A stretch of 64,000 nt of DNA from Catenovulum maritimum (GTDB lineage Bacteria > Pseudomonadota > Gammaproteobacteria > Enterobacterales > Alteromonadaceae), in assembly GCF_001050375.1 (NCBI RefSeq), contig NZ_KQ130482.1:512954-576953 (forward strand), written 5' to 3'. Under the pieces are notes generated by a model that was not told the DNA's origin, ran no database searches, and worked only from the letters and a program-made list of their open reading frames with translations. Of the stretch, positions 19,842-63,356 are shown in pieces. The position numbers and the translations under genes are program-made. Within the stretch, counting starts at the first letter, position 1; each line of letters opens with the position of its first letter.

Positions 19842-22800
19842 ATGAAAAAAAATGGAGTGAAAAACATAAACCGGATCGCCATCCTGGCGAGCTTAGGGTT
19901 TGTGACCGCAAGTGCGATATCCGCCCCAGTTAAAGTTGATATTAACTTAGACACCAAGCATGAAGTTAAAGGTGTATCGGACTTTAATCGAAAAAAACAT
20001 ATCACTGTTCACTCAGCCTTGACCGAGACAGATTGGCAGGGTGAAGCTGAGACCATGAATTACTTAATGAACGAACTTGATGTTTATTTTGGTCGTGATA
20101 ACGGTATGGCATCTTGGATATTTAAAGCAACTGCACAAGATCCAGAAAACCCAGGAAAACCGCACATTGCCGATTTAACGAACTTTGGTCAATGGCACAA
20201 AGAAAACATGTACGATAATTTACCGGAATCGGTTCGTGCATATGAAGCGCGTAGTGACGAAATGATTATGGGTATCACGCCGCATGGCCCTTTCCCAACA
20301 CAATCGTATTGGCCAAAAGATTTAGCGGGTAAAGATGATGATGCAGGTCAATATGTTTTAAGACGAATTGATCATGGCGCAGAGTGGGTTGGTGAATATA
20401 TCGATCAATTCTTCCGTAAAGACGGCGAAACAAGCGGTGTGTTAATGCCAAAATATTGGGAAGTGATTAACGAACCCGATATGGATATTAACGTAGGCCG
20501 AACTTTTGTGATGTCGAGTTTTGAGCAACTCTTTGAATACCACAATTTAGTCGCTCAAGAAATTAAAGCAAAACTACCGGAAGGCCAACGCCCACTCGTC
20601 GGCGGCATGACATGGGGTTTACACGATTTAGAAAAGCCTGATTTGTCTGAGCGATTCCCAACACAAGAAAGAGCAGTTCGTAATCGATACTCCTATGAAC
20701 CAGGAGAACTAGAAGACTTTTTACAAAACGTAACCAGTTCAGAATACTGGGCAACGCAAGATGATGCCTATTTCCAGTGGGATGCGATCTGGAAAGGATT
20801 TATGGATGCTTCTGGTGAAAACATGGATTTTTACTCACTGCATTTGTATGACTGGGCGCACTTAGGTGACAACCCACGTCAAGGTAGTACATTCCGTCGC
20901 GGTATGAAAACCGAAGCGATTTTAGATATGGTTGAATGGTATGACGCACAAGTTAATGGTGCTGACAATCTTAAACCTTGGGTGATTTCAGAATATGGCG
21001 CGATTGCATCTAAACATGGCAAACTAGAATTTTTAGCTAACGATTATCGCTATTCAGATTGGTTACACTTAAGAACGTTTAACCAAATGTTTATGCAAAT
21101 ATTAAGACGTCCAGCTCAAGTCGTAAAATCAATGCCATTTGCACCAATTAAAGGTAAATGGGGACTGTTGACGGGGCCTGATGGCGAAGCTATCCGCTAT
21201 GAAGCGGCATTAATGCATACTGACGAAGCATTATCTGAAGATTATGATGACGCCGAGTGGTATGTAACGGATAAAATTCAATGGTATGAATTATGGTCTG
21301 ACGTAAAAGGTACGCGTGTTGATACGCATTCGAGCGATCCAGATGTGCAAGTAGACGCTTATGTAGACGGTAATCACACCTATCTGATTCTAAATAACTT
21401 GGAATGGTACGATATTCCAGTTGATTTAGCATTTATGGGCGCCAATGGTAACACAGTTAAAAGTGTTAAAATTAAGCACTCATACTTAGCCGAAGGCTTA
21501 AGCCCGACTAACTTAGGTCGTCCAATTTTAGCGCAGGCGACACTGACTCATTTACCAGAATCTGTGACGTTAGAGCCAGGCTCGACCATCATCTTAGATG
21601 TTGAATATAATGACGATGTCTCAATCACTTCAACCATGCAAGAGAAAAAATACTATGGTGAGAGTTTATCCGGTGCTGGTAAAGGCTTAGCCGCAAAAGG
21701 CCAAGTACACAGAATTACGGGTAATACCATGACAGGTAATATTAATGGGGTTGTTGTGCCGACTAATGGTGAAGCCACATTAAGAATTGCAGCTGAATTT
21801 TATCCTTTCCATGCAGCCAAACCTAACAATAATACCTTTACAATTAACGGTCATACCTTAGCAGTACCAACTCAAGTTAACCCAAATGCGAGTGGTGTTA
21901 TGACAGAGCACTACGATTATATGGGACCAGAAGTGGATGAGGGCAGTGTTTCATTAAACTTAATTGAAATTCCGGTACCGTTAGACTACTTACAAGAAAA
22001 CAATGTGATCACAGCGTCGGTTGCCTCTGCTCGTACATTTACGGCGATTAGTTTATCGACTTGGGAAACAGAGCAAGCGATCCCAAGAAGCCAAGTTCAA
22101 GCATGTGACCCTTGTATTACGGCAAGTGATTTAACTATCTCTGGTGAAAGTGAAGTTTTATATAAAAATACCATTGCATTAACGGCGACAGTTTTACCTG
22201 CCAACACCAGCAATAAATCCGTACATTGGACAAGCTCAAATGTCTTAGTTGCAGCTGTTGACCAAAATGGTTTAGTTACCGGTACAGGACCGGGCACAGC
22301 GACGATTACAGCAAGTACAGAAGAAGGCGTGTTAATCACAGACCATGTTGTTAACGTAACAACGGTACAGCCAACCCATGTTGAACTTGACATTAGTAGT
22401 GCAACCTTAGCGTTAAACGAAACACTGGCGTTAAGTGTTCAAATTGAACCGTTAAACGCGACGATTAAAAAAGTAATTTGGTCATCATCAAATGAAGCGG
22501 TTGCAACCGTAGATAGTAAAGGGGTTGTGACTGCAGTGGGTGCGGGCTTAGCAGACATTACCGTTAAGACAGTAGATGGTGATGTCAGCGATGTTGCTAG
22601 CATAGAAGTAACGACTATTGCTGTTTCTTCGATTGAAATGACCTCAAACGCGGTAATTGTTTTACCAGGCAGCTACCAAGCACAAGCTAACCTTATCCCT
22701 GCGAATGCAACGGATAGCAAAATTACCTGGAAAACAGACAACTACACAATTGCCACAGTGGATGTGAATGGTTTAATTACGGGTGCATCTCCAGGTGCGA

Positions 22801-25352
22801 CGACTATCACAGCGACGACAAACGATGGTGGTTTTCAAGCCAGTATTATCGTTAACGTGATGGAATCTGAATCGGTTCCAACATCAGGTTTTGTTATTGA
22901 AGCTGAGACATTAACTGACACAGGCGGCGCATTTGCTGGTTTCGATAGCAGTGCGGTTGGTATCAACAATAACCAAACGGGTGATTGGGCTGAATATCAA
23001 GTGAATTTCGCGCAAGCGGGTGTTTATCGCTTAGTATTAGATGCAGGTACACCAACTGCCGCAGTCAATGGTGCTGAAGTCTTTGTAAACGGTGAATCAG
23101 CAGGCAGTGGCGACGTTGCCACGACAGGCGATTGGGACCTAATGCAAAGTAACGTGATTAGTAATAACTTAGTGATTGCGACAGCGGGTACGCATACGAT
23201 TCGAATTGAAAGTATTGGTGCAGATGCTAAATGGCAGTGGAATGCAGATAAAATGACTTTCATTTTAATTAGCACTTTATCACCAGATCTTGCACCAAGT
23301 ATTGAACAGCCGGCAGAGCCAGAAGTGCCTGAAGGACCAGCAACGGGTTCATTAGCGTTAGATGATAATAGTAAATATTTAACGACGGAATATGTAGTTG
23401 GTGAAAGTCTAACCGTAACTGCTAACTATGATGCGGGTGTTAATCAAACGGTTAGTTCAGGACAAGGTGGTGTTAAGTTTTTCTTACGAGAAATGACGTC
23501 AACTTGGGGCTTGGTAAATGATGTATTAGCTTATGACGCAAGCGCAATCGGTGAAGTATCAGGCACAGCAACAGCTACACTGTCGCTGGTTGATTTAACT
23601 CCGTCAGCAGATTTACCAGCAGGTAATTTTTACTTCTTATTTGCGGCATTCGATTCAACGGATGGCGAAACTTATAAAATTGCCGGTGTTAGCCCAATTA
23701 AGGTTGTTACCGAATTAACACCAGAAGAGCCAACAGATCCAGAAGAACCGACAGAGCCAGAAGTCCCATCAGAGCCGTCAATAAGTTTAGATAACGTTAG
23801 TAAACATTTAAACACAGTGTATGGCAAAGGGAGTTCAATGGACCTAAGCATTGGATTTAATGCGGGTACAGGAAATACGGTAGTAGAAAGTTCATTTGGT
23901 GGCGTGACGAGTGGTTTAATCGTTATCTTACAAGAGTTACGTGCGGATGGTTCGCAAGTTAAACGTGTCGTTTCAGGTGAATCCAGTGTGATAAATCAGC
24001 AAAATGGCATGGTTAATCTGAGTATGCCTTTAGTGCATCCGACTCAAGGTGCGTTACCAACCTCAGCCGAATTAAACGAAGGCCATTATTATAACTTAAC
24101 GGCTCGTTTTAAATCATCAGATGGCAGTACGCAAATCTTAGCCAGTGTTTCTCCAATTATGATTGGTGAAACGACGATTGAGCCAGAAGAGCCTGAGCAA
24201 CCGACTGAGCCAGAAGAGCCAGCTACACCAGAAGAACCTGTTGATTCTAATGATCTAGTTGATGGCGCTTCATTTACTATTCAAGCTGAAGCATTTGATG
24301 AAACAGGTGGCCGAGTTGCTGGTGTAACAGTGGGTGAAAGAGGTACACCTACAGACCGTCGTACTGTTACCGACAGTAATCAAAATGGTGATTGGGTAGA
24401 TTATTACATCGACTTTCCAACAAGTGGTTTCTACCGTATAGAAATGGTCGCTTCAAGTTCGAATGCTAATTCACAAGCTGCGTTATATATTGATGCTGAA
24501 CGTATAAAAGAAGTTCCAGTATTCACTGGTAACCAGGGCGTATTTGACAGTTTTGAATTAACTGATGCGACTTATATCACTGCTGGTACTCACACCGTTA
24601 GAATTGAAGCAACAACGGCTGGCGGTAATGGTTGGATGTGGTTTGGTGATACAGTGACATTTACTGAGTTAGTGGAAGAGCAAGCTGAAATAACGGTTGA
24701 ACCTTCAATTAGTCTTGATGATGCAAGTTTGTATACATCAACTAATTACATTGTTGGTGGTCAATTAAATGTAACAACTTACTTTGAAGCGGGTTCAGAT
24801 AATTTAGTCACAGATCAATTCTCAGGTATGCAATATCAACTTGTTGAAATGACTTCAGGTAACCAGATCGTTAATGAAGTAACTGTCACTGATACTAGCA
24901 TTATTGAAATGCAAAATGGTATTTCGACAGCGAGTATCTCATTAACTGGTTTAACTGCATCAGACAAACTGGCTGCTGGTAACTATTACGTACTGACTGC
25001 ACGCTTTGGTACGACAGCTAATGGTGTACAAAGTCTACAAACAAATTCGCCAATAACGATTGAAGGTGATTTCGATTTAGATGGAATTGCCGACTCATCA
25101 GACCCTGATGACGACAACGATGGTGTTGATGACGCGATTGACGACTTTCCAAATGATCCTGTTTACGGCGTATTAGGTGATTTCGATGGTGATAATGACG
25201 TTGACCGTAAAGATATTGCTTATTTTGTTCGTGCTATGCGTAACCCTGAAATGCACAGACCAGAATTTGACTTTAATGGTGACGGCAGAGTTCACAGAAG
25301 TGATGTCAGTAAATTAAGAAGCTTATGTACACGTAGTCGTTGTGCTGAATAA
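19842..25352 (+). CDS. Giant secreted GH86 beta-agarase/porphyranase with Big_2, CBM6 and dockerin domains
   Basis: An 1836-residue secreted enzyme, much longer than a bare GH86 (about 600-800). Signal peptide about 1-27. The catalytic TIM barrel and accessory sheets span about 30-600 and carry YWEVINEPD (candidate acid/base Glu) and PWVISEYGAI (candidate nucleophile Glu). Three Big_2 domains span about 765-1010. CBM6 modules lie at about 1015-1143 and 1475-1610. An unnamed 120-residue domain occurs three times (about 1168-1290, 1312-1442, 1621-1740), joined by Pro/Glu linkers. Residues about 1780-1830 form a type-I-like dockerin with two canonical calcium loops, DFDGDNDVDRKD and DFNGDGRVHRSD. 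It is followed after 18 bp by the cohesin-like PEP-CTERM gene. Agar or porphyran cleavage is inferred from family resemblance. Confidence 0.85.
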   Translation: MKKNGVKNINRIAILASLGFVTASAISAPVKVDINLDTKHEVKGVSDFNRKKHITVHSALTETDWQGEAETMNYLMNELDVYFGRDNGMASWIFKATAQDPENPGKPHIADLTNFGQWHKENMYDNLPESVRAYEARSDEMIMGITPHGPFPTQSYWPKDLAGKDDDAGQYVLRRIDHGAEWVGEYIDQFFRKDGETSGVLMPKYWEVINEPDMDINVGRTFVMSSFEQLFEYHNLVAQEIKAKLPEGQRPLVGGMTWGLHDLEKPDLSERFPTQERAVRNRYSYEPGELEDFLQNVTSSEYWATQDDAYFQWDAIWKGFMDASGENMDFYSLHLYDWAHLGDNPRQGSTFRRGMKTEAILDMVEWYDAQVNGADNLKPWVISEYGAIASKHGKLEFLANDYRYSDWLHLRTFNQMFMQILRRPAQVVKSMPFAPIKGKWGLLTGPDGEAIRYEAALMHTDEALSEDYDDAEWYVTDKIQWYELWSDVKGTRVDTHSSDPDVQVDAYVDGNHTYLILNNLEWYDIPVDLAFMGANGNTVKSVKIKHSYLAEGLSPTNLGRPILAQATLTHLPESVTLEPGSTIILDVEYNDDVSITSTMQEKKYYGESLSGAGKGLAAKGQVHRITGNTMTGNINGVVVPTNGEATLRIAAEFYPFHAAKPNNNTFTINGHTLAVPTQVNPNASGVMTEHYDYMGPEVDEGSVSLNLIEIPVPLDYLQENNVITASVASARTFTAISLSTWETEQAIPRSQVQACDPCITASDLTISGESEVLYKNTIALTATVLPANTSNKSVHWTSSNVLVAAVDQNGLVTGTGPGTATITASTEEGVLITDHVVNVTTVQPTHVELDISSATLALNETLALSVQIEPLNATIKKVIWSSSNEAVATVDSKGVVTAVGAGLADITVKTVDGDVSDVASIEVTTIAVSSIEMTSNAVIVLPGSYQAQANLIPANATDSKITWKTDNYTIATVDVNGLITGASPGATTITATTNDGGFQASIIVNVMESESVPTSGFVIEAETLTDTGGAFAGFDSSAVGINNNQTGDWAEYQVNFAQAGVYRLVLDAGTPTAAVNGAEVFVNGESAGSGDVATTGDWDLMQSNVISNNLVIATAGTHTIRIESIGADAKWQWNADKMTFILISTLSPDLAPSIEQPAEPEVPEGPATGSLALDDNSKYLTTEYVVGESLTVTANYDAGVNQTVSSGQGGVKFFLREMTSTWGLVNDVLAYDASAIGEVSGTATATLSLVDLTPSADLPAGNFYFLFAAFDSTDGETYKIAGVSPIKVVTELTPEEPTDPEEPTEPEVPSEPSISLDNVSKHLNTVYGKGSSMDLSIGFNAGTGNTVVESSFGGVTSGLIVILQELRADGSQVKRVVSGESSVINQQNGMVNLSMPLVHPTQGALPTSAELNEGHYYNLTARFKSSDGSTQILASVSPIMIGETTIEPEEPEQPTEPEEPATPEEPVDSNDLVDGASFTIQAEAFDETGGRVAGVTVGERGTPTDRRTVTDSNQNGDWVDYYIDFPTSGFYRIEMVASSSNANSQAALYIDAERIKEVPVFTGNQGVFDSFELTDATYITAGTHTVRIEATTAGGNGWMWFGDTVTFTELVEEQAEITVEPSISLDDASLYTSTNYIVGGQLNVTTYFEAGSDNLVTDQFSGMQYQLVEMTSGNQIVNEVTVTDTSIIEMQNGISTASISLTGLTASDKLAAGNYYVLTARFGTTANGVQSLQTNSPITIEGDFDLDGIADSSDPDDDNDGVDDAIDDFPNDPVYGVLGDFDGDNDVDRKDIAYFVRAMRNPEMHRPEFDFNGDGRVHRSDVSKLRSLCTRSRCAE

Positions 25353-25370
25353 TAGATTAGGAATAGTAAA

Positions 25371-25940
25371 ATGAAAAAATTATATATGTTGTCAATGTTA
25401 AGCCTGTTTAGTTTCCAAAGTAACGCAGGGTTAATGCTAGATTCCGATGCCAGTACTTACGAGATTGGTGACACCATTAATATTAATTTAAGTTATGATG
25501 CTGGTGTACCTTTGGGTGGCTTGCTAGATATGAACTTTGATGCCTTAACTTATTTTACCTTCTCAGAAGATACAGCAAGTTTTGATATTGAGTCACTTCC
25601 TGCACAATACGCAAATGCTGACCCATTTGCCTTTACTGACTATGATGCGATTTTTGATGAGTGGACTTATAGTTTAAGTACTTATGGCTTAGAAGCCCCT
25701 TTTGCTGCGACAGACACTGTTCTTGATTTAGGCACATTAAGTTTTATTGCTAATGATCTTGGCAGTTTTAGTTTTAATGTTTCTGAGTTCGGTTTATATG
25801 ACTGGTATGGCTTTGAGGAGACAGAGTTTAGCCTTAGTCATTCAGTTAACATTGTCGCAAGTGAAGTGCCTGAGCCATCAACGCTCGCTATATTTGGTCT
25901 TGCTTTAGCAGGCTTAGCTAGGTCTCGCCAAAAAGCTTAA
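25371..25940 (+). CDS. Cohesin-like PEP-CTERM surface protein
   Basis: A 189-residue protein with a signal peptide (to about residue 19, SNAG). Residues about 22-160 have the look of a cohesin-type beta sandwich: SDASTYEIGDTININLSYD, then a strand-rich middle, and LGTLSFIANDLGSFSFNV near the end. The C-terminus is a textbook PEP-CTERM sorting tail: VPEPST, a hydrophobic helix, and the basic end RSRQK. Exosortase/archaeosortase-type enzymes process such tails for surface or exopolysaccharide anchoring, but no exosortase is in this window. It begins 18 bp after the dockerin-ending agarase gene, so the two are one operon and may bind each other. The cohesin assignment is by pattern, not by search. 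Confidence 0.65.
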   Translation: MKKLYMLSMLSLFSFQSNAGLMLDSDASTYEIGDTININLSYDAGVPLGGLLDMNFDALTYFTFSEDTASFDIESLPAQYANADPFAFTDYDAIFDEWTYSLSTYGLEAPFAATDTVLDLGTLSFIANDLGSFSFNVSEFGLYDWYGFEETEFSLSHSVNIVASEVPEPSTLAIFGLALAGLARSRQKA

Positions 25941-26040
25941 GCGACTTTTATTATGTGATGACAAATGAGCTAAAAATCGATATGAGCCTGAAATAAAGTT
26001 CAATTCGATTTGCTAAATCACTTTTTTGACTAAAAAATAA

Positions 26041-26073
26041 AAATCCGATGGATATTATTCATCGGATTTTTTT
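26041..26073. terminator. Bidirectional terminator between the GH86 operon and the amylase
   Basis: Ten-base stem AAATCCGATG (26041-26050) with CATCGGATTT (26060-26069), flanked by an A-rich tract on the left and seven T residues on the right, so it can stop transcription from both convergent units. Confidence 0.85.
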
Positions 26074-40366: not shown

Positions 40367-41623
40367 TTAGTCCAAATATAATTGGTCTTCGGTTAGACCT
40401 ATGAACTGGTTATTGCTGGCATTATACTCTGTTGTTTTGCGGCCATCGTAAGCGCGTGAAACAATACCGTATGTTTTTGTACCCGAACGGTCAGCTGTAG
40501 AAATTTGATTGTTCGTAATTTTAATTTTCCCTTGGGTGCCATCTAAACCAATCGCCTCATAATGTTTACCTCTGGCATTGATTGGGTTTGTGCTATTTGC
40601 AAAGATGGCCCCTAAATCTGTAATTATGTTGTCTGTAATGCTGGCATTAGTTACACGTTCAATAGAAATGGCACGCACCGCATTTTTTATTGTATTGTGG
40701 CTAATAACGGCATCATGTGAAGTTCGGCCAGAAAACAAATGTTTGATACTCAAACCCACAGCGACATCCTTAATTGTATTATGCTGCATGGTGATTTTAT
40801 CCGCACCACGTTTACTGGTAATCCCATCGTACGCTCTTTCTATAATATTGTGCGTCATGACAAAATTGTCACCTATTTCGCCTTCTTTACCAGCCGCAGT
40901 AACATAAATAGCGGCGTCTCTAATACCATAGAATTTATTTTTTGTGATTTTGGCACTTCTGGTTCCTGCCATTAAAATCCCGCTATCTCCGCCAGCAAGA
41001 AAAAACGGGTCAGTATCATTTTTAGTGCCTGTGACGCTTATGCCTTCAATATGGACATGTCTTAATTTTTGGTAGCCGTTATGATTACCTCTAATGGATA
41101 ATGCATCGGCCGTCTTTTTCGTACCAGTTCTGCCCTCGGGTGTCATTTTTACAATAGGTACTACTTGCGACACCTTGGCGTCAGCCATATCCATTAGACC
41201 ACCATGCCAATGTATTTCTATCTCATTTTCATGGCCACATTTTTTAGAGTTTTTGTTATGTGCATCTAAGCCGAATAAGTCGCCATCCAGCGCTTCAGTT
41301 GCAATAAAAGTAGCTGCTCTTGCATCGACTAATAGATGATTTCTTAGTGTGACTTTAATTTCTTTATCTATGTAATAGGTACCAGAAATTTGCACCTGCT
41401 TACCTGTGTTAGTTGCATTTTGTAATGCTTTTTGCAATTTACTGGCGTCGCCTTTGGGATCAAAAGGTAGCGCTTCGCAACCTTTTGCTAAAGTTGTCTT
41501 GGCTTTTTCTTTTGGATTTGTCGTTTTGTTAGAGCTTGTGTTGTTTGTCGAAGAGCAAGCCGTCAAGACGAGCGATGAACAAATTAAGGCAAGTAAAGAT
41601 AAGCGTTTGTTAGCTAAAAACAT
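40367..41623 (-). CDS. Beta-helix lipoprotein 1 (lyase-like fold, unknown activity)
   Basis: A 418-residue lipoprotein (VLTAC at 18-22). After a Ser/Thr/Asn linker, residues about 55-410 form a right-handed parallel beta-helix with repeated N-x-I turns (ITKNKFYGIRDAAIYVTA, MQHNTIKDVAVGLSIKH, ISHNTIKNAVRAISIER). It is clearly paralogous to the protein at 62151-63356. Both share GTYYI, DARAATFIATEALDGD-type openings, GGDSGILMAG, and DGITSKRGAD. The fold is that of polysaccharide lyases and glycoside hydrolases of families such as PL6, GH28 and GH82, but no specific catalytic signature was recognised. Divergent neighbour is a sulfatase, and GH78 follows, so sulfated rhamnose-containing polymer is the likely context. 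Confidence 0.65.
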   Translation of the reverse strand: MFLANKRLSLLALICSSLVLTACSSTNNTSSNKTTNPKEKAKTTLAKGCEALPFDPKGDASKLQKALQNATNTGKQVQISGTYYIDKEIKVTLRNHLLVDARAATFIATEALDGDLFGLDAHNKNSKKCGHENEIEIHWHGGLMDMADAKVSQVVPIVKMTPEGRTGTKKTADALSIRGNHNGYQKLRHVHIEGISVTGTKNDTDPFFLAGGDSGILMAGTRSAKITKNKFYGIRDAAIYVTAAGKEGEIGDNFVMTHNIIERAYDGITSKRGADKITMQHNTIKDVAVGLSIKHLFSGRTSHDAVISHNTIKNAVRAISIERVTNASITDNIITDLGAIFANSTNPINARGKHYEAIGLDGTQGKIKITNNQISTADRSGTKTYGIVSRAYDGRKTTEYNASNNQFIGLTEDQLYLD

Positions 41624-62150: not shown

Positions 62151-63356
62151 TTAAAAGCGCATTACCCACTTATCTAATTTAGAAAACGTATTATTTGTAA
62201 TCGTGTCTCCTGTCGTTGCGCGGCCATCTTCATCTCGCGTAACGACACCATAAGTTGTGGTTGAACCTTCACGGCTGCCAGTGATCCCTAATATTGTATT
62301 ATCCCTAATATAATTTGTACCTTGCACGCCGTTTAGCGAAATACCTTCATAGTGTTTGCCATACTTGTTTCTAGGGGTTGATTCGCCAGCAACTATATCT
62401 CCTAAGTTAGTTATTTCGTTGTTTTCTATTGTTACGTTATTAGCTCTTTCTACACTAATTGGTCTTGTGCTCGATTCAACTGTGTTACCTGAGATGGTTA
62501 CATTAGTTGAAGTCCAACCAGAGTAAACGCGCTTAATGCTTAAGCCCACAACGGCATCTATGATTTGATTATTTAACATTTTGATGTTGTCAGCACCACG
62601 CTTACTAGTAATGCCATCATAAACTCTTTCTATATAATTGTTCGATAAAGTGAAGTGGTCGCCATAAACACCGTTATCACCGCCAGCTGATACATAGATA
62701 GCGGCATCTCGGATACCATAAAACGAATTGTTTTTAATGGTCGCTTTAAGCGCGCCTGTCATTAATATTCCGCTATCACCGCCAGCAAGGTAAAAAGGAT
62801 CAGATGATGAGTGAGTACCGGTAACCGTAATATTTTCAATTGTCAGCTGGTTTAACTTGCTTGCTCCATTATTTGTGACGCCTCTAATTGAAAGCGCATC
62901 TGCTGTGGCTTTTGTGCCTTGTTTTGAAGCTGGCGTTAAACTGGTATAAGGCACAACTGTTGAAACTTTTGCATTTGCTATATTAAAGTCGCCACCATCC
63001 CAATGTACATTGGCTAATATACCTGAACTGTTACAACCAGAAGAAAGACTGTCGTGAGAATCTAAACTAAACATGTCGCCATCTAGGCTTGATGTTGCGA
63101 TGAAAGTTGCACCTGTGGCATCAACAATTAAATCTTTTTTTAAGTAAACCTTAGTGTCTGAACTTATATAGTAGGTGCCGGTTAAGCGTAAGGGAATACC
63201 AGTATTGGTTGCTTGCTGAAGGGCATTTTGTAATTTATCTTCGTTGCCATTTGGGTTAATTGGTGTACTGCTGCAGTCAGCTGCGAGTAAGTTTGTCGAC
63301 ACAGCTGTTAAACAAATTGCGCTATAACTAATTAATTTTTGGATTTTATTAAACAT
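62151..63356 (-). CDS. Secreted beta-helix protein 2 (lyase-like fold, unknown activity)
   Basis: A 401-residue secreted protein (signal to about residue 25, NLLA). It is not a lipoprotein, unlike its paralogue at 40367-41623. Residues about 35-395 form the same right-handed beta-helix with repeats such as IKNNSFYGIRDAAIYVSA and MLNNQIIDAVVGLSIKR. Shared blocks are GGDSGILMTG, YDGITSKRGAD and KHYEGISLNGVQG. It lies between the ulvan-lyase-like gene (same direction) and the rhamnose mutarotase (divergent), so a role in ulvan breakdown is likely. No specific glycosidase or lyase family is recognised. Confidence 0.65.
   Translation of the reverse strand: MFNKIQKLISYSAICLTAVSTNLLAADCSSTPINPNGNEDKLQNALQQATNTGIPLRLTGTYYISSDTKVYLKKDLIVDATGATFIATSSLDGDMFSLDSHDSLSSGCNSSGILANVHWDGGDFNIANAKVSTVVPYTSLTPASKQGTKATADALSIRGVTNNGASKLNQLTIENITVTGTHSSSDPFYLAGGDSGILMTGALKATIKNNSFYGIRDAAIYVSAGGDNGVYGDHFTLSNNYIERVYDGITSKRGADNIKMLNNQIIDAVVGLSIKRVYSGWTSTNVTISGNTVESSTRPISVERANNVTIENNEITNLGDIVAGESTPRNKYGKHYEGISLNGVQGTNYIRDNTILGITGSREGSTTTYGVVTRDEDGRATTGDTITNNTFSKLDKWVMRF

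Follow-up and report, generated by a model that had tools for sequence, protein, structure and literature searches.

A dockerin-bearing GH86-type enzyme and an adjacent cohesin-like PEP-CTERM protein suggest a single-cohesin docking system in Catenovulum maritimum and related marine bacteria

Introduction

Cellulosome-forming bacteria possess monovalent surface anchors, such as OlpA and OlpC of Clostridium thermocellum, which combine a single cohesin with an SLH module, and the sortase-anchored ScaE of Ruminococcus flavefaciens. Here, we describe a candidate Gram-negative counterpart in Catenovulum maritimum (family Alteromonadaceae). In a stretch of 64,000 nucleotides of this genome (C1:512954-576953, contig NZ_KQ130482.1; the whole stretch is referred to as the window), a gene for a beta-agarase/porphyranase of the glycoside hydrolase family 86 (GH86) type, which ends in a dockerin, is followed by a gene for a small cohesin-like protein with a PEP-CTERM sorting signal. 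We propose that the small protein probably serves as an anchor for the enzyme.

The role of cohesins and dockerins outside cellulosomes has been described as unknown (PMC5244752, available in part). A cohesin-dockerin pair from Archaeoglobus fulgidus, whose accessions O30294 and O30295 are consecutive, has been used for display (PMC9705933, available in part), and the authors of the Saccharophagus degradans genome speculated on surface attachment via dockerin-like and cohesin-like open reading frames (ORFs; PMC2386152, available in part). PEP-CTERM genes accompany outer membrane and exopolysaccharide genes, and the roles of many PEP-CTERM proteins are described as unclear in the available text of PMC1569441. 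The nuclease ExeM of Shewanella carries a GlyGly-CTERM device, and deletion of its C-terminal anchor left the membrane location unchanged (PMC6085458, available in part).

Results

The domains of the two proteins, the predicted cohesin fold of the smaller one, the conservation of their pairing and the co-occurrence with exosortases were established by computation. According to Pfam, the enzyme combines three Big_2, two CBM6 and two porphyranase-type domains with a C-terminal dockerin; its signal peptide was recognized by eye. The N-terminal 759 residues match solved enzymes in the PDB (5ta1, 1.6e-75; beta-agarase 8h97, 8.8e-69; GH86A porphyranase 4aw7, 1.2e-33), and this homology to solved GH86 enzymes places the protein in that family, with a predicted agar- or porphyran-cutting activity. 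Near the C-terminus, the calcium loops DFDGDNDVDRKD and DFNGDGRVHRSD can both be read directly, in the duplicated arrangement of type I dockerins. The Dockerin_1 match in the whole-protein Pfam scan is marginal (residues 1778-1825, E 1.1e-4, 22.8 bits at a cut-off of 22.9), and a six-frame scan of the genome with PF00404 places the same dockerin above this cut-off, at 27.8 bits. The A8 profile, made from this dockerin and related ones, matches it at E 1e-25, and cellulosomal dockerins rank first when a profile of this type is compared with the PDB. At the position corresponding to the linker before the dockerin, the homologue of Catenovulum agarivorans DS-2 has a TSP_3 match (E 0.0014) below the cut-off of that family.

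The small protein is encoded on the same strand after a gap of 18 bases, with the enzyme stop at 25352 and the next ATG at 25371. Its PEP-CTERM signal is recognized by PF07589 (E 1e-7, above the cut-off) and by TIGR02595 (22.7 bits at a cut-off of 16); other NCBIfam matches were below their cut-offs, lay at or included the PEP-CTERM end, and were not used for naming. We aligned 23 proteins encoded next to dockerin genes, with signal peptides and PEP-CTERM tails removed, into a profile (A3), and compared it with the PDB, where cellulosomal cohesins were the top matches (3l8q, 3.2e-7; 6kgc, 5.2e-7). When the window protein and its nearest relative in the set were left out of the partner profile, the window protein was still recovered at E 8.4e-8, and the best of 1000 shuffled sequences reached 0.9. 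A template-free AlphaFold2 model from three sequences is a beta-sandwich with a predicted local distance difference test (pLDDT) score of 63.5 and a predicted template modelling (pTM) score of 0.60. Foldseek ranks 1 to 10 for this model are all cohesin entries (2jh2, E 7.5e-5), the best alignment by VIA-align is with the cohesin 2vo8 (Z 12.6, root-mean-square deviation 2.6, 129 residues), and the complexes of Coh-OlpA and Coh-OlpC are among its structural matches in the PDB. By profile and predicted fold, the assignment as cohesin-like holds. At E up to 1, the Pfam Cohesin family matches only 10 of the 23 proteins in A3 (the strongest at 6.5e-7) and misses the other 13; it was dropped as arbiter of cohesin identity because it is insensitive here. 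Pfam was likewise dropped as arbiter for dockerins: genomes G006 and G007 have no PF00404 match, yet their dockerins adjoin cohesins. Two named strains have relatives of the small protein: C. agarivorans DS-2, at 46% identity, and C. sediminis WS1-A, at 41%. Among viral contigs, seven pattern matches were found, none related to the window protein.

This genome of 4.55 Mb holds two dockerins by PF00404, the same two that the A8 profile finds, and both are followed by a gene for a cohesin-like protein. The second dockerin (C1:494903) ends a BNR_4-type protein of 1010 residues, and 14 bases on, a 176-residue protein of the cohesin-like PEP-CTERM kind is encoded, which shares 26% identity with its counterpart in the window. 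A scaffoldin with several cohesins was not found in the genome, which has no PF00963 match and whose only two A3 cohesins lie in separate proteins shorter than 200 residues. A cellulosome in the strict sense is thereby ruled out.

Pairing was then surveyed in a sample of 395 genomes of the family Alteromonadaceae, with PF00404 for dockerins (159 genomes) and the A3 profile for cohesins (154 genomes). Both occur in 126 genomes, dockerin only in 33, cohesin only in 28 and neither in 208 (Fisher p 1.2e-43); all eight genomes of the genus Catenovulum contain A8 dockerins and A3 cohesins. We read 148 dockerin places, best-scoring first among the matches listed (48 loci in a first round and 100 fetched later), leaving aside seven matches at the end of the list and one overlapping match (G117). 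Three places with an open frame (L029, L133 and L153) were dropped, so that 145 remained. A neighbour was defined as a same-strand ORF of at least 90 residues that starts between about 60 bases before and 400 bases after the dockerin stop. By this measure, a cohesin-like ORF lies directly downstream in 86 of the 145 dockerin genes, including the 23 of A3, which match by construction because they were chosen for adjoining dockerins. Among the genes fetched after the A3 members had been chosen, a set that includes genera represented in A3, the cohesin-like ORF is next in 58 of the 98 readable cases and absent in 40; in the first-round loci outside A3 it is present in 5 of 24 and absent in 19. 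Upstream partners, such as that in genome G004, count as missing because only downstream same-strand ORFs were covered. Locus L154 resembles a cohesin by eye and was missed by the profile. Chance adjacency of dockerin and cohesin-like genes is ruled out by the co-occurrence and the neighbour counts.

Across the Gammaproteobacteria, A3 matches occur in 24 of 369 genomes, and 11 of 22 A3 loci fetched from outside the Alteromonadaceae also have a dockerin-profile match. Two of the loci outside the family have the order dockerin-cohesin-cohesin and dockerin-cohesin-dockerin (L197, L198), layouts hinting at small multi-part versions.

Partners also resemble each other in their relationships. Over the 86 pairs, dockerin similarity tracks cohesin similarity (Mantel rho 0.33, reached in 0 of 1000 permutations). 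Restricting the exchange of cohesins to partners within one genome (11 genomes with at least two pairs), which removes species relatedness, gave an r of 0.54 at a null mean of 0 and a standard deviation of 0.19, a value reached by 1 of 5000 permutations. Two loci, L164 and L176, encode an identical protein. In genome G004, the cohesin gene precedes a GH86-type gene (8h97, 2.9e-100) whose frame of 1213 codons carries the dockerin; the order can thus change while the pair persists. Genome G005 has three dockerins with tails that resemble that of the window by eye, and no cohesin was found beside them; its sole A3 cohesin lies elsewhere, is of the window type (39-40% identity) and is identical to the C. 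sediminis protein. These two genomes speak for partnership beyond linkage.

The proposed anchor would require an exosortase, and the window genome encodes XrtA (exosortase A; 328 bits, cut-off 208), adjoined by exopolysaccharide genes of the XrtA system (FemAB, deacetylase, glycosyltransferase and amidotransferase). Exosortases occur in 261 of the 395 family genomes; of the 154 genomes that have an A3 cohesin, 149 encode one, as do 112 of the remaining 241. In the genus g19, six of seven dockerin genomes have no exosortase match and one (G230) has a marginal match (3.7e-4). In five of these seven, the cohesin-like neighbour carries another hydrophobic, Arg-rich tail (L055, L063, L074, L081 and L105); genome G375 (L118) has a dockerin without a cohesin-like neighbour, and G187 lies outside the places read. 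The expression used for PEP tails is loose and fires on some of these other tails (L055, L074 and L081).

The clients are diverse. Of 46 dockerin proteins prepared, 40 were scanned over about 560 C-terminal residues each; the endonuclease/exonuclease/phosphatase family accounts for 17, with single cases of GH98, glucuronyl esterase, BNR_4 and others, which makes predicted nucleases the most frequent clients among these relatives. One dockerin-bearing nuclease served as query against 118 genomes; of its 30 best matches, 29 were readable. A dockerin stands at the C-terminus in 22 of these 29 (14 of them with a cohesin next), a share that is biased upward because the set consists of the best matches to a dockerin-bearing query, and the remaining seven lack it. 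One of the seven (L247) has a tail of Gly-Gly, a hydrophobic stretch and Arg at the dockerin position; the dockerin thus occupies the place that an attached anchor has in some relatives. In ExeM-type nucleases of Alteromonadaceae (L049-L051, L058, L224-L253), the dockerin often comes right after an SDHDP motif, and others have different tails; nucleases of this type are possibly the commonest client of the system.

Further features of the locus are listed in Table 1. Two-cysteine tails (such as CTRxxCA) end 94 of the 145 dockerin proteins read; a cohesin neighbour is present for 61 of these 94 and for 25 of the 51 dockerin proteins without such a tail. This tail is possibly a disulfide clasp. 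In the genus g25, dockerins (L090, L098, L109, L110 and L112) extend into an additional tail (SLRSLFR or SLRSLFN, for example) and lack a cohesin-like neighbour. The inverted repeat that follows the pair is absent from the listed matches of the terminator scan. Elsewhere in the window, translations read by eye revealed a pair of secreted proteins on the minus strand (40367-41623 and 62151-63356) that visibly resemble each other, each about 400 residues long.

Table 1. Coordinates of the enzyme gene, the cohesin-like gene and their parts in the window
Feature	Position	Strand	Basis
GH86-type beta-agarase/porphyranase ORF, 1836 residues	19842..25352	+	ORF call, Pfam, PDB profile matches
Stretch of the GH86 region best aligned to solved GH86 structures (residues 310-609)	20769..21668	+	
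Asp-rich TSP3-like linker directly before the dockerin	25075..25172	+	by eye
Dockerin (residues 1778-1825), calcium loops DFDGDNDVDRKD and DFNGDGRVHRSD	25173..25316	+	Pfam, dockerin profile
C-terminal tail of the enzyme with two cysteines, RSLCTRSRCAE	25317..25349	+	
Cohesin-like PEP-CTERM protein, 189 residues	25371..25940	+	ORF call, Pfam
Signal peptide of the small protein (residues 1-19)	25371..25427	+	by eye, alignment
Cohesin-like beta-sandwich (residues 20-164)	25428..25862	+	profiles, predicted fold
PEP-CTERM sorting signal (residues 166-186): VPEPST, hydrophobic helix, basic end	25866..25928	+	Pfam
Possible terminator 3' of the pair: 11-bp inverted repeat, loop of 9, T run	26040..26073	+	by eye

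Discussion

In the reading that we consider likely, the GH86-type enzyme docks in a calcium-dependent manner onto an anchor that has a single cohesin and is sorted by an exosortase, and is thereby displayed at the cell surface or within the exopolysaccharide. The enzyme would be exported, fold and carry its C-terminal dockerin as a plug. The small protein would be exported via its signal peptide, processed at the PEP-CTERM signal by XrtA, and then form a socket with a single cohesin at the cell surface or within the exopolysaccharide. With calcium, which is plentiful in sea water, the dockerin would plug into this cohesin, and the binding would thereby keep the agar- or porphyran-cutting enzyme close to the cell, where fragments could stay near and their products might be taken up. 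The binding itself, its dependence on calcium, the processing at the PEP-CTERM signal, the surface location and the benefit are what we infer.

Several observations weigh against this reading. Pfam Cohesin (PF00963) does not match the small protein at E up to 1, nor anything in the genome at E up to 10, and the confidence of the small-protein model, built from three sequences, is modest. Integrin and adhesin domains reach Z 9.4-11.3 with this model, and since an integrin domain scores 11.3, the fold alone cannot prove dockerin binding. On the enzyme side, the dockerin profile also picks up calmodulin and other EF-hand proteins, ranked after the top cellulosomal dockerins, and the predicted dockerin model, from two sequences, has a pLDDT of only 52 and is too poor to search with. 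The PEP-CTERM signal is below the Pfam cut-off in the C. agarivorans tail (E 0.055) and in the second pair of the window genome, where VPEPST is seen by eye (E 0.0033, 19 bits), and the C. sediminis protein has no match. By the neighbour test, 59 of the 145 dockerin genes lack a cohesin-like neighbour; 36 of these lie in genomes with an A3 cohesin somewhere and 23 in genomes without an A3 match. The latter number and the 33 dockerin-only genomes are overcounts, because the genome-level A3 scan missed g19 neighbours that the local profile found, and the unmatched dockerins L069, L128 and L152 lie in such genomes. Of 516 comparisons in the plain swap count, 371 agree and many disagree, with cases in genome G315 near or below half (one at 29/69), and linkage, the joint movement of adjacent genes, could be the source of the swap-test result. 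For clients of the ExeM type, the unchanged location of ExeM after anchor deletion implies that anchors may matter less than assumed. Finally, a surface location presupposes a route of PEP-CTERM proteins across the outer membrane.

This last point leaves some room for a different use of the same binding: the PEP-CTERM protein could act in the periplasm or inner membrane as no more than a carrier or chaperone that passes the enzyme on to secretion, after which the enzyme is released. In its favour, ExeM, a nuclease of the type seen in many clients, co-fractionated with the cytoplasmic membrane and went undetected in the supernatant (PMC6085458, available part). Against it stand the outer membrane and exopolysaccharide genes that accompany PEP-CTERM genes (PMC1569441, available part), as in the window genome, and the genus g19, in which an exosortase is missing or marginal and five cohesin-like neighbours carry another membrane-type tail, as if an anchor were needed. 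We regard a carrier as unlikely. That the two proteins do not bind at all and are co-inherited neighbours, the cohesin-like domain binding sugar or exopolysaccharide, appears less probable still. The cohesin fold is a common beta-sandwich for which integrin domains score nearly as high, and linkage alone could produce the swap-test result, but the halves of a known binding pair co-occur with unrelated enzymes, in both gene orders and also unlinked, and their co-occurrence over genomes is strong (Fisher 1e-43). It is very improbable that the terminal Asp loops are merely a calcium-stabilised TSP3-like stalk with a PEP-CTERM gene as chance neighbour: a TSP3-like stretch does precede the dockerin, whose whole-protein Pfam score is 0.1 bit below the cut-off, but the dockerin profile match of E 1e-25, the first rank of cellulosomal dockerins in the PDB and the pairing of both dockerin genes of the genome speak for a dockerin. 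Display by docking onto the cohesin-like anchor thus remains the reading we prefer.

An earlier note on this DNA had proposed a one-enzyme, scaffold-free agarolytic analogue of a cellulosome, and our results support its interpretation with two corrections. Its observations, a GH86 protein that ends in two dockerin calcium loops and, 18 bp downstream, a secreted 189-residue protein with a VPEPST PEP-CTERM signal, agree with the reading frames, the PDB matches and the PF07589 match. The label "cohesin-like", unseen by Pfam, is borne out by the profile and by the structure prediction the note had called for, which gave a cohesin-like fold (Z 12.6); the exosortase it suggested looking for is present as XrtA, and the pairing it expected in related genomes is conserved (58 of 98 dockerin genes fetched later). 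The system is neither agar-specific, given the many nuclease clients in the relatives scanned, nor strictly one-enzyme, given the second pair with the BNR_4-type protein, and it is not a cellulosome. The idea of an own operon partner describes the usual arrangement but not the sole one, as the three dockerins of G005 with one cohesin gene elsewhere illustrate.

We also lean, with less assurance, towards a broader picture, in which exosortase-sorted single-cohesin anchors form a general Gram-negative display system in several gammaproteobacterial families. These anchors, often encoded beside their client, would hold nucleases, GH86 enzymes and other proteins through pair-specific dockerins that have replaced attached C-terminal anchors. 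A dockerin in place of an attached anchor would turn the enzymes into exchangeable, calcium-switchable cargo.

In the literature searched, which held few subscription papers and no preprints, dockerin or cohesin never appeared together with PEP-CTERM, and exosortase was mentioned alongside dockerin or cohesin once, with separate treatment in the available part of that text. The role of cohesins outside cellulosomes and the role of PEP-CTERM proteins meet here in compact two-gene pairs of marine bacteria, including two named strains, whose predicted clients are nucleases and seaweed enzymes, so that the functions of exosortase substrates and non-cellulosomal cohesins become directly testable. 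For surface display in Gram-negative bacteria, they could also provide compact docking modules that may be specific to each pair.

Among known systems, the proposed arrangement is closest in principle to OlpA, OlpC and ScaE, in which a surface anchor bears one cohesin and thereby binds one protein with a dockerin. Single-cohesin surface anchors are thus known from cellulosome bacteria, and the principle is not new; the differences lie in the Gram-negative host, the exosortase/PEP-CTERM signal, the adjacent genes for enzyme and cohesin, and the absence of a multi-cohesin scaffoldin from what was found. A. fulgidus likewise has a non-cellulosomal cohesin and dockerin (cohesin structure 2xdh), but this host is an archaeon. 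To our knowledge, its pair includes neither a PEP-CTERM signal nor a glycoside hydrolase client. With the PEP-CTERM/exosortase sorting system, the locus shares the signal peptide, the PEP-CTERM tail and an exosortase with exopolysaccharide genes; dockerin and cellulosome have no occurrence in the available text of that description (PMC1569441), whereas in this locus another enzyme would dock onto the sorted protein. ExeM, with its GlyGly-CTERM/rhombosortase-type anchor (PMC6085458, available part), is the same type of nuclease with a C-terminal membrane device, but in 22 of the 29 related nucleases the C-terminus is a dockerin, and the anchor would sit on a second protein. S. degradans is a marine Gram-negative polysaccharide degrader with cohesin-like and dockerin-like ORFs, for which the available part of the report (PMC2386152) gives no pairing, PEP-CTERM link or test. 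Compared with these systems, the anchoring by exosortase, the operon pairing and the spread in Gram-negative bacteria appear to be new.

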